A stretch of DNA of 64,000 bases, from NCBI GenBank assembly GCA_023259375.1, contig JAHFQC010000023.1, positions 1-64,000 of the forward strand. The letters run 5' to 3'. A program made the position numbers and the translations under genes. The stretch is from Alphaproteobacteria bacterium (lineage in GTDB: Bacteria; Pseudomonadota; Alphaproteobacteria; Micropepsales; Micropepsaceae). The notes beneath the pieces are model-generated. The model worked only from the letters and a program-made list of their open reading frames with translations. It searched no databases and was not told the DNA's origin. The stretch's first letter is position 1, and every line of letters starts with the position of its first letter. Below, one piece after another: positions 3,013 through 13,052 of this stretch.

Positions 3013-4053
3013 CTATTGGCTGGCCCGCGCCAGCGCCACGAACCGTTCGACATCTTCTGGCGGCGTGGCGAAGCTGGTCACCAGGCGGATCAAGGTCCGT
3101 CCGCCCGACGGCGGTCCCCAGTCGTAGAATTCGGCGCCGCCTCGCCGCAGATGCGCTGCGAGGGCGTCAGGAAGCCATACGAACACGGCATTGGCATCCA
3201 CCGGATGGGCCAGTTCGACCCCGTTGATGCCTTCCAGGCCCTCGGCAAGCCGCGTCGCAAGCCGATTAGCGCCCGCGGCGCGCGTCAGCCAGCGGTCTTC
3301 GGTGAGGTAGGCGTCGAGCTGGGCCGAGACGAAGCGCATTTTCGAGATCAGATGACCGCTCTTCTTGCGCCGGTATTCGAAATCTCCGGCAGCGGCCGGA
3401 TCGAAGAACACCACCGCTTCCGCCGCCATGGCGCCGTTCTTGGTGGCGCCGAAACTGAGAACGTCGACACCCGCCTGCCAGGTTGCCGCGGCCGGCGAGA
3501 CGCCGAGATGGGCAACGGCATTCGCGAAACGCGCGCCATCCATGTGGACCTTCATGCCATGGTTGTGGGCGAGGCGGCTCAGCGCAGCGATTTCGTCGGG
3601 TGTGTAGACGGTGCCGAGCTCGGTCGACTGGGTCAGCGACAGCACGGCCGGCTGGGCGTGGTGGACAAACCCCTTGATCTGATGGGCGAGGGCGGTCGCC
3701 AGCGCCGCAGGCGTCAGCTTGCCATGCTCGCCTTCGATGCCGATGAGCTTGGCGCCGTGGGTGAAGAATTCGGGCGCACCGCATTCATCCACCGCTATGT
3801 GCGCTTCGGCGTGGCAAAAAACCGCCCCGTGCGGAGGGCACAGAGTGGCCAGTGCCAACGCATTCGCGGCGGTGCCGCTGATCACCGGAAAAGCTATGGT
3901 GCAGCGCGCAAAAATGCGCTCGAAATGGGTGGCGATTTGGGCCGTCAGGGCATCGGCCCCATAGGACGGAACCGGCCCGGCGGCGGCGGCAGTGACGGCA
4001 TCGGCGATCTCGGGCCAGCAGCCGTAGGCGTTATCTGACAGGAAGTTCATCAT
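3013..4053 (-). CDS. ltaE: Low-specificity L-threonine aldolase
   Basis: A PLP-dependent fold-type I enzyme of 346 residues, about the usual family length, that cleaves threonine or allo-threonine to glycine and acetaldehyde in the cytoplasm. The N-terminal NFLSDNAYG resembles the family's FRSDT region. HMDGARFANA carries the cofactor-binding Asp, and SFGATKNG holds the Schiff-base Lys at about residue 205. It is the second gene of a minus-strand pair, 30 bp after gloA. The two genes suggest small-aldehyde and glycine metabolism, although the pairing may be incidental. The first of two adjacent ATGs is taken as the start; a GGGGGA stretch precedes it. Confidence 0.9.
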   Translation of the reverse strand: MMNFLSDNAYGCWPEIADAVTAAAAGPVPSYGADALTAQIATHFERIFARCTIAFPVISGTAANALALATLCPPHGAVFCHAEAHIAVDECGAPEFFTHGAKLIGIEGEHGKLTPAALATALAHQIKGFVHHAQPAVLSLTQSTELGTVYTPDEIAALSRLAHNHGMKVHMDGARFANAVAHLGVSPAAATWQAGVDVLSFGATKNGAMAAEAVVFFDPAAAGDFEYRRKKSGHLISKMRFVSAQLDAYLTEDRWLTRAAGANRLATRLAEGLEGINGVELAHPVDANAVFVWLPDALAAHLRRGGAEFYDWGPPSGGRTLIRLVTSFATPPEDVERFVALARASQ

Positions 4054-9466: not shown

Positions 9467-9517
9467 CTGATTTGTACTCGTTTTGTTCAGTTTGTCGCAC
9501 TCGGAAAACTCCCCTTG
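9467..9517 (+). repeat. Dispersed 104-bp intergenic repeat, copy A, left half
   Basis: Starts ctgatttgtactcgttttg. Joined to 12,888-12,940 it aligns without gaps to 51,777-51,880 (minus strand), with about 93 of 104 positions identical counted by eye. The transposable element at 9,518-12,879 split this copy. The last 8 bases (tccccttg, 9,510-9,517) are the target-site duplication. Confidence 0.85.
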
Positions 9518-9659
9518 GGTAGTGTCCTAATTTGAAAAATAAACCCCAAGGCACCCAAAGATCCCGGCGGCTATCCTTTTCGGATGGGCGATAAGCACAA
9601 ACCCGTGAAATGGAAATGCCGCTGGGGCTGGCATGAGTGCCGGACGATGCGGGAAGCGC

Positions 9660-9869
9660 TCAGACCATCCGGAAGTGATGAAGTGCCGCCACAATCGCGG
9701 AACGCTTCGACGCGGGGCATGGCACCTGCCGGACATCCGGGTTACGCCGATTTGCAGCCACCCGAACTCGCAGACCAGCATCTGATTTGACGTGAGCAAT
9801 CCAGCAAGACTTTGGCACAAAGCCATGCCTTGCCTTTACCCAGTCTTGGATTTCTTTGACCGTCGCCAT
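9660..9869 (-). CDS. Small conserved element-borne protein (69 residues), function unknown
   Basis: Begins MATVKEIQDWVKARHGFVPKSC and is basic, with an IQ/W-rich first helix. It starts 4 bp after the transposase stop on the same strand, with GGTGAG just before the ATG, so it is probably co-transcribed and translationally linked. From memory, short proteins of this type (WVK..HGFVPKSCWIAHVK) recur in rhizobial mobile elements and phages; no function is known to me. A regulatory or DNA-binding accessory of transposition is possible but unproven. Confidence 0.65.
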   Translation of the reverse strand: MATVKEIQDWVKARHGFVPKSCWIAHVKSDAGLRVRVAANRRNPDVRQVPCPASKRSAIVAALHHFRMV

Positions 9870-9873
9870 GGCC

Positions 9874-10698
9874 TCACCGGCTAGTTTCTTCCACCAGTTC
9901 CTGCAGTGACCATAGCCGATTTTCCACACCCGCCGCCATGGCTGGCGTAACCCGCAGCGACTTGTGGATACGCACGAAATTGTAGTGCGCAAAGTGCAGC
10001 GCCACAGCCGCCTTGAGGTGTTCCGGCTTCTTAGAGAAGCCGTTCGTCAGCCGGGTCATGCGCCGCATGGACATGCGCATGTTGAGGTTCTGGCGCTCAA
10101 CAAGACTCGTGCTGATATGGCGTTCATCGGGGTTACCAGAAATCACGGTCTTTTCCTGGCCTGAAACCTTGGGAGGCGAATAGCGTCCGGGGCCGATAGG
10201 TTCTGCATCGTAGAATTTAACCACCTGACCGTAATCGACATCGCCACCGAAAGCGTCTTCGACCGCACGGATATAAGAAACCAGACCGTCCGTCGAAATC
10301 TGGACGCGGTTGGTAAGGCGCGCGCGAAGATCGCTCATAAAGGCGTAGGCGTTCTCAGCGGTGCGCTTGCCGGTGAAGTAGGTAGGAACAAGCTTGGTAT
10401 CAGGATCAAGCGCCACGAACGTCCAGAAGTCGCCAGCGCGGACGCTTTCGCCCGGCTTCAATTGGGCCTGCTTCTTGCGAACGTAGGACCAAATCTCATC
10501 ACACTGGACGCGTTCGCAAGACAGGTTGCGCATCTTCTCGTGCGCCAGCTTGTGGCAGCCCTTACCGGCCTCAAAGCCAAGCCGCATGATCGTATCGCGA
10601 TGGATGCCAGTCATCCGCTCTACTGACCGGATGGAATTCCCCTCTACCAATGCCCCGATAACTTGGCTGCGGCGTTCGATGGAAAGGCGGTTGACCAT
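9874..10698 (-). CDS. IS1-like DDE transposase
   Basis: 274 residues in one uninterrupted frame. The N-terminal helix-turn-helix (ERRSQVIGALVEGNSIRSVERMTGIHRDTIMRL) would bind the element ends. The catalytic core shows Asp67 (QCDEIWSYV), Asp137 (ISTDGLVSY) and Glu201 in SLVERQNLNMRMSMRR, then HYNFVRIHKSLRVTPAMAAG at the C-terminus. This matches the RNase H-fold transposases annotated as IS1-like in rhizobia. Unlike classical IS1 there is no frameshift between two ORFs. All catalytic residues are present, so it is probably active. Its promoter overlaps operators shared with the divergent HTH gene. Confidence 0.92.
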   Translation of the reverse strand: MVNRLSIERRSQVIGALVEGNSIRSVERMTGIHRDTIMRLGFEAGKGCHKLAHEKMRNLSCERVQCDEIWSYVRKKQAQLKPGESVRAGDFWTFVALDPDTKLVPTYFTGKRTAENAYAFMSDLRARLTNRVQISTDGLVSYIRAVEDAFGGDVDYGQVVKFYDAEPIGPGRYSPPKVSGQEKTVISGNPDERHISTSLVERQNLNMRMSMRRMTRLTNGFSKKPEHLKAAVALHFAHYNFVRIHKSLRVTPAMAAGVENRLWSLQELVEETSR

Positions 10699-10719
10699 GA
10701 CTGTCTCTCTTGACGATCT

Positions 10720-10757
10720 GTATATGTGAGAATATACGTGTATATGGTTACGTATAC
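10720..10757. promoter_or_regulatory. Divergent overlapping promoters with two 18-bp inverted-repeat operators
   Basis: Inverted repeat 1 is GTATAT-6-ATATAC (10,720-10,737). Inverted repeat 2 is GTATAT-6-GTATAC (10,740-10,757), centred 20 bp away, about two helical turns. A rightward promoter TTGACG (10,710-10,715)-17-TATACG (10,733-10,738) faces the HTH gene. A leftward promoter TTGTAT-17-TATATT (complement of 10,754-10,759 and 10,731-10,736) faces the transposase. Both -10 boxes overlap the repeats, so a protein bound here would silence both genes. Confidence 0.7.
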
Positions 10758-10769
10758 AAGAGGTCAGTC

Positions 10770-11003
10770 ATGAATTTTCGTCAGGCCACCGATGCACTAT
10801 TGGAATCAGTAACCCTGGAGGATTTGGCCAATGCCATGGGGATATCGATTCAGGCCGTCAGACAGGCCCGAGCGGCAGAAGGCAGCAAGGCTCATAGATC
10901 GCCGCCTCCGGACTGGGATGGGGCCGTAATCCAACTGGCGCAGGCCAGAGCTAAGGCGCTTTCGGCGCTTGCGCGCCAAGTGAGCCGCAAGCGATGGATT
11001 TAA
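10770..11003 (+). CDS. Small helix-turn-helix protein, probable element regulator
   Basis: 77 residues. Positions 12-38 read as an HTH (ESVTLEDLANAMGISIQAVRQARAAEG), and a basic C-terminus (ARQVSRKRWI) follows. The start at 10,770 is set by AAGAGG six bases upstream; the longer frame from 10,710 would run through the promoter. The gene is divergent from the transposase, and its own promoter lies on the paired operators. This suggests autoregulation and repression of transposition. Family name not assigned. Confidence 0.75.
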   Translation: MNFRQATDALLESVTLEDLANAMGISIQAVRQARAAEGSKAHRSPPPDWDGAVIQLAQARAKALSALARQVSRKRWI

Positions 11004-11042
11004 TCCGGCTCCAAGTTGCCGATAACGTTATCGGCAAAAACA

Positions 11043-11309
11043 TCAATGGCATAACGGTAGCATGGCGGCCCATGCAGATTGTCTTACGGCTCCAGTCTGT
11101 ACCCATTCCGTTCTAAGTGCGCTATAACACTCTGATGTATAAGGGAAAACATCCTCAATTGGAAATCCGATTGCGAATGACTCTCCACTTTCTACTGCCT
11201 CCACCGCTTCTGGGGCTGCCAAATATGCCAATGTGCGATTCCTGTGGATAAATACCCGAACCATAGGTTCCCCCCCGTAACACCGAGCGATTACTTGCTG
11301 ATGGGACAT
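11043..11309 (-). CDS. Element-borne hypothetical protein (88 residues)
   Basis: Begins MSHQQVIARCYGGEPMVRV. A strong GGAGG lies six bases before the ATG (complement of 11,316-11,320), which is the main support. The sequence is mixed alpha/beta with an acidic middle (EAVEAVESGESFAIGF) and has no motif I recognise. It is convergent with the HTH gene and transcribed away from the DUF5343-like gene. One of the passenger genes of the transposable element. Confidence 0.6.
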   Translation of the reverse strand: MSHQQVIARCYGGEPMVRVFIHRNRTLAYLAAPEAVEAVESGESFAIGFPIEDVFPYTSECYSALRTEWVQTGAVRQSAWAAMLPLCH

Positions 11310-11471
11310 GTCAAACCTCCGATGATATCTGCGTTTTCTTCAGCATCGCAGGGCTTTATCTGGAGTGTGAGCGCTTTCTTGGAACGCGCAATTCCGCCGT
11401 TGCATTTGGAATATCATACGGTATAAATAGTGCGATCCCGGTACACCACTGACGACGGGATGGAGCCGAGA

Positions 11472-12158
11472 ATGAGTGAAGCCCCTGAAATCAAGGTAAC
11501 GCCACCTTACACCTCGTTTCCGTCGTTCAAGACGCTGCTTTCCAAGCTGAAGGAACATGGCATCCCGGCACGGATCGATCGGAGCGTCCTGGGCAACAGC
11601 TTTTCTAATGCTGTCGGAAGCCAGATTTTGACCTGTCTCAAGTTCCTGGGCCTGACGGACGACGACAACCAGCCAACGAAGCTACTCAAGCCGCTGGTAG
11701 ACGAATATGGCACCGAGGATTGGAAGTCATCGCTCCGTATCGTCCTGGAGCAGTCATATCCGTCTCTATTCGCGCTGAACCTCGAAAATGCTTCAGCATC
11801 TCAGTTCAACGAGCGGTTTCGTAGCGCCTACAACGGCACCGATGATGTCCAAAGGAAGTCTATGACGTTCTTCTTGTCGGCTGCCAAGGACGCCGATGTG
11901 AAGCTCAGCCCGTACATCATGAAGAACAAGAAGCCGCGATCATCTCCGGCCAAGAGGCGAGCGGTCAGGACGCCAAAGAATAACACTCCAAATAACGGCG
12001 CTAACGGAGAGAATAACGGTGGCAATTACGTTCCACCGGCGCAGACTCAAAAGATGCCATCTGAAATCCTGCTCGGACTATTCGACACCAAGATGGACCA
12101 GAAGGAGCAAGACGCTTTGTGGCTTCTCATCAAGCACTTCAAGACGAAGAGCCAATGA
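11472..12158 (+). CDS. DUF5343-like passenger protein
   Basis: 228 residues. The N-terminal 150 residues (PPYTSFPSFKTLLSKLKEHGIPARIDRSVLGNSFSNAVGSQ...LKFLGL) match my memory of the DUF5343 pattern, a winged-helix-like domain found in bacterial and mobile-element proteins of unknown role. A basic, Asn/Pro-rich linker follows (about 155-198: KKPRSSPAKRRAVRTPKNN...NNGGNYVPP), then a short helical tail ending HFKTKSQ. The start at 11,472 has GGAG six bases upstream and is preferred to 11,430. The basic linker suggests nucleic-acid contact (inference). It is the largest cargo gene of the element and is followed at once by a hairpin-rich spacer. Confidence 0.72.
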   Translation: MSEAPEIKVTPPYTSFPSFKTLLSKLKEHGIPARIDRSVLGNSFSNAVGSQILTCLKFLGLTDDDNQPTKLLKPLVDEYGTEDWKSSLRIVLEQSYPSLFALNLENASASQFNERFRSAYNGTDDVQRKSMTFFLSAAKDADVKLSPYIMKNKKPRSSPAKRRAVRTPKNNTPNNGANGENNGGNYVPPAQTQKMPSEILLGLFDTKMDQKEQDALWLLIKHFKTKSQ

Positions 12159-12400
12159 GCGCCAGATACGAAATCGGCTGCGGTGTGCAACCACCGCAGC
12201 CCGATCCCGGCGGGTCGCGCCCGCTAACCCCTAACCCGTCCTGACCGGCGGAACTGGAAAAGAGGTGATCTCCCTGCGAAAAGATCGCAGCATAAAAAAG
12301 TAGGCGGTCAGGCCGCGTTGCTCGGTAGCTACCTAGCGACGCGGCTTCCGTCGTTCATATAACATAGTGGCAGAATCTTACGCAAATCTGAGAGAAATCC
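12159..12400 (+). ncRNA. Hairpin-rich non-coding segment in the element, possible structured RNA
   Basis: Four GC-rich stem-loops occur in 200 bases. The first has 10-bp perfect arms GGCTGCGGTG / CACCGCAGCC (12,176-12,185 and 12,192-12,201). The second is GCGGG-TCGCG-CCCGC (12,210-12,224). The third is CTGCGA-5-TCGCAG (about 12,272-12,288). The last has 11-bp arms GCCGCGTTGCT / AGCGACGCGGC (12,312-12,322 and 12,335-12,345), and its loop holds the palindrome GGTAGCTACC. The only open frame is a 29-codon ATG overlapping the upstream stop (12,155-12,244), which is Pro-rich and doubtful. Could be a leader or attenuator for the downstream pair, or a separate RNA. No known RNA family is recognised. 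Confidence 0.4.
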
Positions 12401-12721
12401 GTGGTCGAAGTCGCCCCCAGCGAACTGAAACAGGCCGTCGAATCCCAGCACGGCGGGACGGCTAGCTACGTCCAGTCCGTACCTCTCCAAGAGGTATTCG
12501 ACGGCAAAGTGGTCTGGGACGGGACTGTTGCCGTCTTTGACCTGGCCGACAGCCCCAGCGGGGCTAAACGGGCCTATGCGTGGTCATATGAGCGGGACGA
12601 CGGCCGGCGCCGGTTCTTTGCTGTGCTGCATATGGGGCCGATTACAGGGCCACGGGAGGCCGTCAGAGCGGCGACAGTGGCGGAAGCGCGATCATCCAGT
12701 AATGAGGGGAAAAATCGATGA
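12401..12721 (+). CDS. Element-borne hypothetical protein (106 residues)
   Basis: GTG start (MVEVAPSELKQAVESQHGGT), with a purine-rich GAGAGAAA eight or so bases upstream. It is an alpha/beta protein with VWDGTVAVFDLA, YAWSYERDDGRRRFFAVLHMGPI and a C-terminal helix (GPREAVRAATVAEAR). Similar small proteins seem familiar from rhizobial mobile elements, but I know no function. The stop overlaps the next start as ATGA (12,718-12,721), so the two are translationally coupled and probably act together. No toxin or antitoxin signature can be named. Confidence 0.7.
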   Translation: MVEVAPSELKQAVESQHGGTASYVQSVPLQEVFDGKVVWDGTVAVFDLADSPSGAKRAYAWSYERDDGRRRFFAVLHMGPITGPREAVRAATVAEARSSSNEGKNR

Positions 12722-12870
12722 TCTCTAACGAGGCACGTCTAGGAGAAGTTCTACGGATGGCTGCCCTGGCGATTAATGAGCTTTACAAAGAACTTGATCG
12801 CAGTCCTCCCCAGGAGGCGGTTAGGCTGGTGCGCGAGTTACAGGAATACGCGGAACAGATTTCAAATTAG
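12718..12870 (+). CDS. Element-terminal small protein (50 residues)
   Basis: Begins MISNEARLGEVLRMAALAIN and ends LQEYAEQISN. The ATG overlaps the previous stop (ATGA). The TAG stop (12,868-12,870) and the last codons are supplied by the right terminal inverted repeat. The protein is predicted to be almost wholly helical and acidic. The pairing of a 106-residue and a 50-residue coupled gene recalls toxin-antitoxin or partner pairs, but this is only a layout resemblance. Its reading frame survives up to the element edge, which argues for selection. Confidence 0.65.
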   Translation: MISNEARLGEVLRMAALAINELYKELDRSPPQEAVRLVRELQEYAEQISN

Positions 12871-12887
12871 GACACTACCTCCCCTTG

Positions 12888-12949: not shown

Positions 12950-13052
12950 CAGAGCGCTTTCAGGAAAAGTGGCGCCGGTTTTCCGTCCGAAAGCGCGACA
13001 ATCAGAGAATCTGGAGCAGTTCATCCGTTTCAGAGAAACGTTGAAGTGCTCC
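12950..13052. repeat. Rhizobial-type palindromic intergenic element
   Basis: Resembles the common alphaproteobacterial intergenic palindromes: gctttcaggaaaagtgg ... ggttttccgtccgaaagcg, then a second hairpin with GGAGCA / TGCTCC outer arms (13,013-13,018, 13,047-13,052) and CGTTTC-AGA-GAAACG inner arms (13,026-13,040). It lies downstream of the gene at 13,064 and might act as its terminator. Family assignment is from memory of RIME-like sequences. Confidence 0.6.

Follow-up and report, generated by a model that had tools for sequence, protein, structure and literature searches.

The 64,000-nucleotide stretch analyzed here (the window; positions 1 to 64,000 of contig JAHFQC010000023.1 from an alphaproteobacterium of the Micropepsaceae) contains at 9518-12879 an IS1-like element of 3362 bp, which is a complete, recently inserted transposon that moved as a whole 3.36-kb unit. 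We consider it probable that this is an IS1-type transposon of the passenger-carrying, tIS-like kind, with an interchangeable slot for toxin-antitoxin (TA) or defence-type genes that is filled in the window by a pair encoding a DUF5343 protein and an 88-residue protein, p88. Sequence comparison with relatives indicates a widespread IS1-like family in which a fixed core is combined with an exchangeable slot, and suggests three separately recurring layers: a core of transposase and the accessory protein p106, a regulator with a helix-turn-helix (HTH), and the DUF5343-p88 cassette. The features of the element, including its minor open reading frames (ORFs), are as follows:

9510-9517, no strand: target-site duplication, left copy, TCCCCTTG, 8 bp, found once in the empty site of the relative G016
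9518-9537, plus strand: left terminal inverted repeat, GGTAGTGTCCTAATTTGAAA, perfect over 20 bp
9584-9790, plus strand: p68, 68-aa ORF convergent to the transposase gene, doubtful as a gene
9874-10698, minus strand: IS1-like DDE transposase, 274 aa, single ORF
10699-10769, no strand: divergent promoter region serving both the transposase and the HTH gene, candidate operator with TGTATA/TATACA-type inverted half-sites
10770-11003, plus strand: HTH protein, 77 aa, probable repressor of the transposase promoter
11043-11309, minus strand: p88, 88 aa, predicted SH3/Tudor-like barrel, divergent partner of the DUF5343 gene
11472-12158, plus strand: DUF5343 protein (PF17278; PADLOC PDC-M34A), 228 aa; the ORF opens with GTG at 11430 and the best start is ATG 11472
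12401-12721, plus strand: p106, core accessory protein without a family name
12718-12870, plus strand: p50, coupled to p106 by ATGA, with its stop supplied by the terminal repeat
12860-12879, minus strand: right terminal inverted repeat, perfect over 20 bp
12880-12887, no strand: target-site duplication, right copy, TCCCCTTG, 8 bp

The initial annotation had placed a transposase and its passengers in a 3.36-kb element with exact ends, and this is borne out by the perfect repeats, the duplication of 8 bp and the relative G016, in which the site is empty. Only one copy of the element is present in its own 4.67-Mb genome, where matches to the 20-bp end, with up to three mismatches allowed, are confined to the two element termini. 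When both flanks were joined and searched against the genus, an uninterrupted match across the junction was obtained in G016 (84% identity over 290 nt). Both neighbouring genes still adjoin the site there (91% and 87% identical at the nucleotide level), and the target occurs a single time. The site was therefore empty before the insertion, which is genuine and postdates the divergence from G016.

The transposase matches the Pfam family DDE_Tnp_IS1 (28.8 bits, cut-off 24.1) and scores 54.5 bits against the NCBIfam IS1 equivalog, short of the 100 bits required there; it is thus referred to as IS1-like, a divergent relative. An alignment of 54 family members shows D67, D137, E201 and R208 to be completely conserved, R208 being a basic residue seven positions after the glutamate. 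The ratio of nonsynonymous to synonymous substitution rates (dN/dS) is 0.14-0.24, indicating purifying selection. No match to resolvase families was found among the element proteins in Pfam and NCBIfam scans.

The transposase was used to scan genomes of bacteria and archaea, which yielded 80 loci; an order-level search added more, and complete elements were recognized by pairing end motifs with target-site duplications of at least 7 bp. This gave another 55 complete elements, 2154-6433 bp long with a median of about 3.1 kb, or 56 with the window element. Their hosts span at least nine phyla, with records assigned to Pseudomonadota, Acidobacteriota, Myxococcota, Thermodesulfobacteriota, Nitrospinota, Nitrospirota, Verrucomicrobiota, Fibrobacterota, Bacteroidota, Ignavibacteriota and Actinomycetota; many of these records are metagenome bins, in which the assignment of mobile DNA may be wrong. 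Most related elements share the GGTAGTGTCCTAATTT end motif of the window element's left repeat, and complete relatives with CAGTTT-class ends reside on two named plasmids, of Mesorhizobium loti and Acidiphilium multivorum. At one locus (L053:1695-4066), a second element-like unit encoding a transposase, a DUF5343 protein and p106 abuts a complete element, possibly as a tandem composite.

The end class is mirrored by the accessory protein. Homologues of p106 are found in 36 of the 55 other elements (37 of 56 with the window copy). By end class, they occur in 34 of 38 GGTAGTGTCCTAATTT-ended (CCTAATTT-ended) elements, the window one included, versus none of the 11 with CAGTTT ends (L014, L020, L065, L066, L078, L079, L081, L086, L095, L096 and L097). 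All 11 CAGTTT-ended elements instead encode, near the element end, a lysine-rich KGG-motif protein of 73-88 aa that closes with a KGG-like motif, GGxARAxxLxxxxRxxIAxxAAxxRW; several P63C cargo proteins of the family begin with the same KGG motif. The position of p106 varies: it directly follows the transposase in Acidobacteriota and Verrucomicrobiota, often overlapping the transposase stop codon, and is placed after the slot gene in Pseudomonadota, which it frequently overlaps. The gene is under purifying selection (dN/dS 0.16-0.30). Its product is predicted to adopt an alpha-beta4-alpha structure (predicted local distance difference test, pLDDT, 86); a sequence search of the PDB gave no match and the best fold-search hit reached a Z-score of 4.1, nothing convincing, so the fold is left unnamed. 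On these comparisons, p106 appears to form the core of this element lineage together with the transposase rather than to be free cargo. The idea that p106 is an element-only protein was rejected in part, as free-standing homologues exist. Those at L162, L164, L166, L167 and L171-L174 are chromosomal, come from the same bacterial family and may be domesticated copies.

In the slot itself, gene content changes from element to element. The 101 cargo ORFs of other elements include eight P63C proteins, five M78/IrrE-like peptidases, three SocA/Panacea antitoxin domains, three Schlafen-AlbA_2 (SLFN_AlbA_2) proteins, two each of PemK/MazF, NYN and YdaS, and single zeta, RelA/SpoT, PIN and MazE representatives. 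Some give strong PADLOC matches, and GmrSD as well as a pair of RloB and AAA_21 genes are present in related loci. As a control, 101 flank ORFs of the same loci were considered, which belong to ordinary metabolic and housekeeping families with isolated PADLOC matches; the two family lists were compared by eye. Plasmid-borne RES/Xre and Shedu genes near relatives were left uncounted, being outside an element or of unproven boundary. Because sister slots hold TA- and defence-like genes while the flanks hold ordinary ones, stability or defence cargo is the best reading of the slot, which we take with moderate confidence to be a cassette of this type.

These results change the picture of a single set of at least six cargo genes, under selection and travelling with the transposase as a possible stability or defence module. 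The genes are intact, and p106, the HTH gene and the transposase gene evolve under purifying selection; however, they do not form one selected six-gene block. p106 and the HTH protein behave as core and regulatory components, p68 is weakly supported, p50 has no detectable homologue, and DUF5343 and p88 make up the slot cassette. The proposed module function survives as the best reading of the slot, but no single block travels. Recurrence of the same cargo order between identical ends had been suggested as a check. The closest relative (transposase 86% identical) shares the ends and p106 and carries a P63C gene in place of DUF5343 and p88, and elements with the same ends and other cargo, which the initial annotation had itself regarded as decisive against its proposal, occur within the family. 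One selected six-gene set is therefore replaced by a modular view of core, HTH regulator and slot cassette.

The HTH gene has homologues at the same position, divergent to the transposase gene, in about 11 other loci (about 12 with the window), and is under purifying selection (dN/dS 0.18). Its product gives weak matches to KorA/TrfB and sigma-r4-like HTH domains. Homologous promoter regions contain inverted half-sites such as TGTATGCA / TGCATACA flanking promoter-like hexamers, a signal that is significant by shuffling in five of eight regions (P 0.001-0.026). Based on the conserved divergent position and the paired half-sites, the HTH protein probably represses the transposase from the shared promoter, and its gene is best viewed as a regulatory gene of the element, not as free cargo.

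The DUF5343 assignment is based on Pfam (37.4 bits, cut-off 27) and PADLOC (PDC-M34A, 3e-11). A DUF5343 or similar protein is encoded by nine of the 56 elements and additionally by L046 (clusters 11 and 12), which is kept outside the 56 with its far end unresolved. Homologues of p88 adjoin and diverge from DUF5343 genes in four elements (L055, L046, L050 and L056); in two of them, L055 and L046, the pair is flipped with respect to the transposase. The five carriers, window included, belong to different phyla and are scattered on the transposase tree, whose well-supported branches require at least four changes; the pair thus appears to move between elements as a swappable unit. Like the components of type II TA systems, the two genes are kept together across unrelated hosts. 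A search with a small profile found no p88 outside elements in 398 other Pseudomonadota genomes sampled, and tblastn detected neither DUF5343 nor p106 on plasmids.

Away from elements, DUF5343 genes are found beside HEPN_Swt1 genes in four scanned loci (PDC-M34A/B), and other element-free copies adjoin DUF4145-like genes. Another contig of the same genome (C126, L179:4306-5566) encodes a second DUF5343 protein whose gene overlaps one for a DpnII-MboI-like nuclease; the two are a candidate DUF5343-nuclease pair. Judging from these neighbours, DUF5343 seems to be partnered quite generally with nucleases and HEPN proteins. For p88, no match to a toxin family was found in Pfam, PADLOC or NCBIfam. 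AlphaFold2 predicts its structure with a pLDDT of 92.5 from an input alignment of five sequences, and the model resembles SH3/Tudor-like barrels (Foldseek probability reaching 0.99, though at an E-value of 0.1; Z-score 6.5 over 63 residues); sharing such a barrel would assign p88 no function.

We hypothesize that the divergently encoded HTH protein represses the transposase via the shared promoter, while p106, as an element-borne accessory tied to one end class, would act in transposition or its control. The slot cassette would be selected as a TA- or defence-type unit by which the element is maintained in its host. In the window cassette, DUF5343 would probably be a DNA-binding regulatory or sensing partner and p88 a small effector or modulator, and the family would vary by cassette swapping rather than carry one fixed gene set. 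Several observations weigh against this proposal. p88 has no recognizable catalytic fold, its Foldseek E-values against the PDB all being at least 0.1, and it may not be a toxin. Pfam and PADLOC scans identified no HEPN or nuclease partner in the element, p88 being found in that place. Homologues of p106 also exist without any transposase in the window's bacterial order, so that p106 seems not to be strictly an element protein, and the operator signal is not significant in the window element alone (P about 0.1).

A stronger version of the same idea, plausible but more doubtful, would see the family as an IS1-type shuttle with a socket: each end class would require its own accessory protein (p106 or KGG) to transpose, the slot would exchange TA or anti-phage cassettes, and DUF5343-p88 would be a new two-gene TA or defence system spread mainly in this way. 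It is rather unlikely that DUF5343, p88 and the HTH protein are all nucleic-acid-binding regulators serving only the element, tuning copy number or target choice in transposition, with neither toxin nor defence activity. In favour of this, the p88 model lies close to chromatin readers and to the C-terminal domains of retroviral integrases, the N-terminal region of DUF5343 appears winged-helix-like by eye, and a regulator divergent to the transposase is present. However, most elements that share the transposase and ends lack the DUF5343-p88 pair, which is thus dispensable for transposition; moreover, the partners of DUF5343 elsewhere are HEPN RNases or nucleases, at sites remote from transposases. 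That the cargo consists of genes once located beside an ancestral insertion sequence, captured between its ends by chance and now drifting, is improbable: cargo does vary among elements, and p50 and p68 have no clear homologues, but the prevalence of p106 and its purifying selection, the lasting pairing of p88 and DUF5343 across phyla, and the abundance of TA- and defence-like families in cargo and not in flanking genes all speak against drift. A defence-island fragment that happens to contain an insertion sequence between chance ends, suggested by the PADLOC families among the cargo, is ruled out by the perfect ends, the duplication and the empty site in G016, and by like ends and duplications at 55 other loci.

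The passenger-carrying transposon with a DUF5343-p88 slot cassette contains further ORFs that are variable or doubtful by comparison with relatives. The reading frames are as initially described, except that the "69-residue" ORF encodes 68 aa and that the best starts of the HTH and DUF5343 genes are those listed above. p68 has a single homologue, 46% identical and at the same position (L036). The ATGA-coupled pair of 106 and 50 residues was described correctly, as was the last stop codon (12868-12870), which lies inside the right terminal repeat. No sequence homologue of p50 was detected, and coupled ORFs of unrelated sequence occupy the equivalent position in several elements. Stop codons within the terminal repeat close the outermost ORF, even that of the transposase, in many family elements (29 ORFs). 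On the minus strand near the left terminus, two ORFs (9527-9826 and 9660-9992) were rejected as genes, having no independent homologues; the second merely mirrors its overlap with the transposase gene. An Rfam search at curated thresholds found no structured RNA in the element. In the right flank lies an intergenic repeat about 100 bp long (12951-13051), which is dispersed through the genome and genus in many copies that are 80-90% identical. The closest relative (L034:107-115 and 4039-4046) has CAAGGGGAG as its insertion site, which reads as the window target CTCCCCTTG on the opposite strand, and its flank resembles the window flank for about 40 nt more on one side, which could reflect a target preference or a shared repeat.

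Simple insertion sequences are usually seen as little beyond a transposase, and TA or defence cargo has been reported mostly from Tn3-type transposons, integrons, prophages and islands. An IS1-type family of compact elements that swap TA- and defence-like genes would be a small, common route for such genes, and the slot of every element would be a place to seek uncharacterized systems. The linkage of p106 or KGG to one end class makes accessory proteins of insertion sequences directly testable. Passenger-carrying insertion sequences and TA pairs in Tn3 elements are already known. The papers searched described no IS1-type family combining an end-class-specific accessory protein with a TA/defence slot, but the search did not cover ISfinder, where an IS1-type tIS may already be listed; neither DUF5343 nor PDC-M34 was mentioned in the literature searched.

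Among the known systems closest to the element is the single-ORF branch of the IS1 family. The window element shares with it a DDE transposase with an IS1 Pfam match, the invariant D, D and E followed seven positions later by a basic residue, ends opening with GG and duplications of 8-9 bp, and 50%-identical plasmid relatives carry an IS1 family annotation. The element differs in being about four times longer, in its uninterrupted transposase ORF, in its at least five extra genes and in the NCBIfam score of its transposase. With PDC-M34 (DUF5343 plus HEPN_Swt1) it shares the M34A protein, but M34B is absent and the partner is p88, whose gene is divergent rather than part of an operon. The name tIS has been given to insertion sequences that carry passenger genes, and a review of the IS6 family cites a single one in that family (PMC7986276). 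Like a tIS, the window element holds genes unrelated to transposition together with one transposase within one pair of ends, free of a resolvase; the IS1-like family is different in that passengers are the rule, in dozens of elements; an accessory protein is tied to the lineage, and cargo of a TA/defence character comes up repeatedly. Tn3-family transposons have repeatedly recruited different TA families, proposed to stabilize the transposon (PMC7157771), and recruitment of different TA families into one transposon family is what the two groups have in common. However, Tn3 elements possess a resolvase and res, with the TA genes located beside res, whereas the window element is resolvase-free with an IS1-like transposase, and recognized TA genes make up just part of the cargo of its family.

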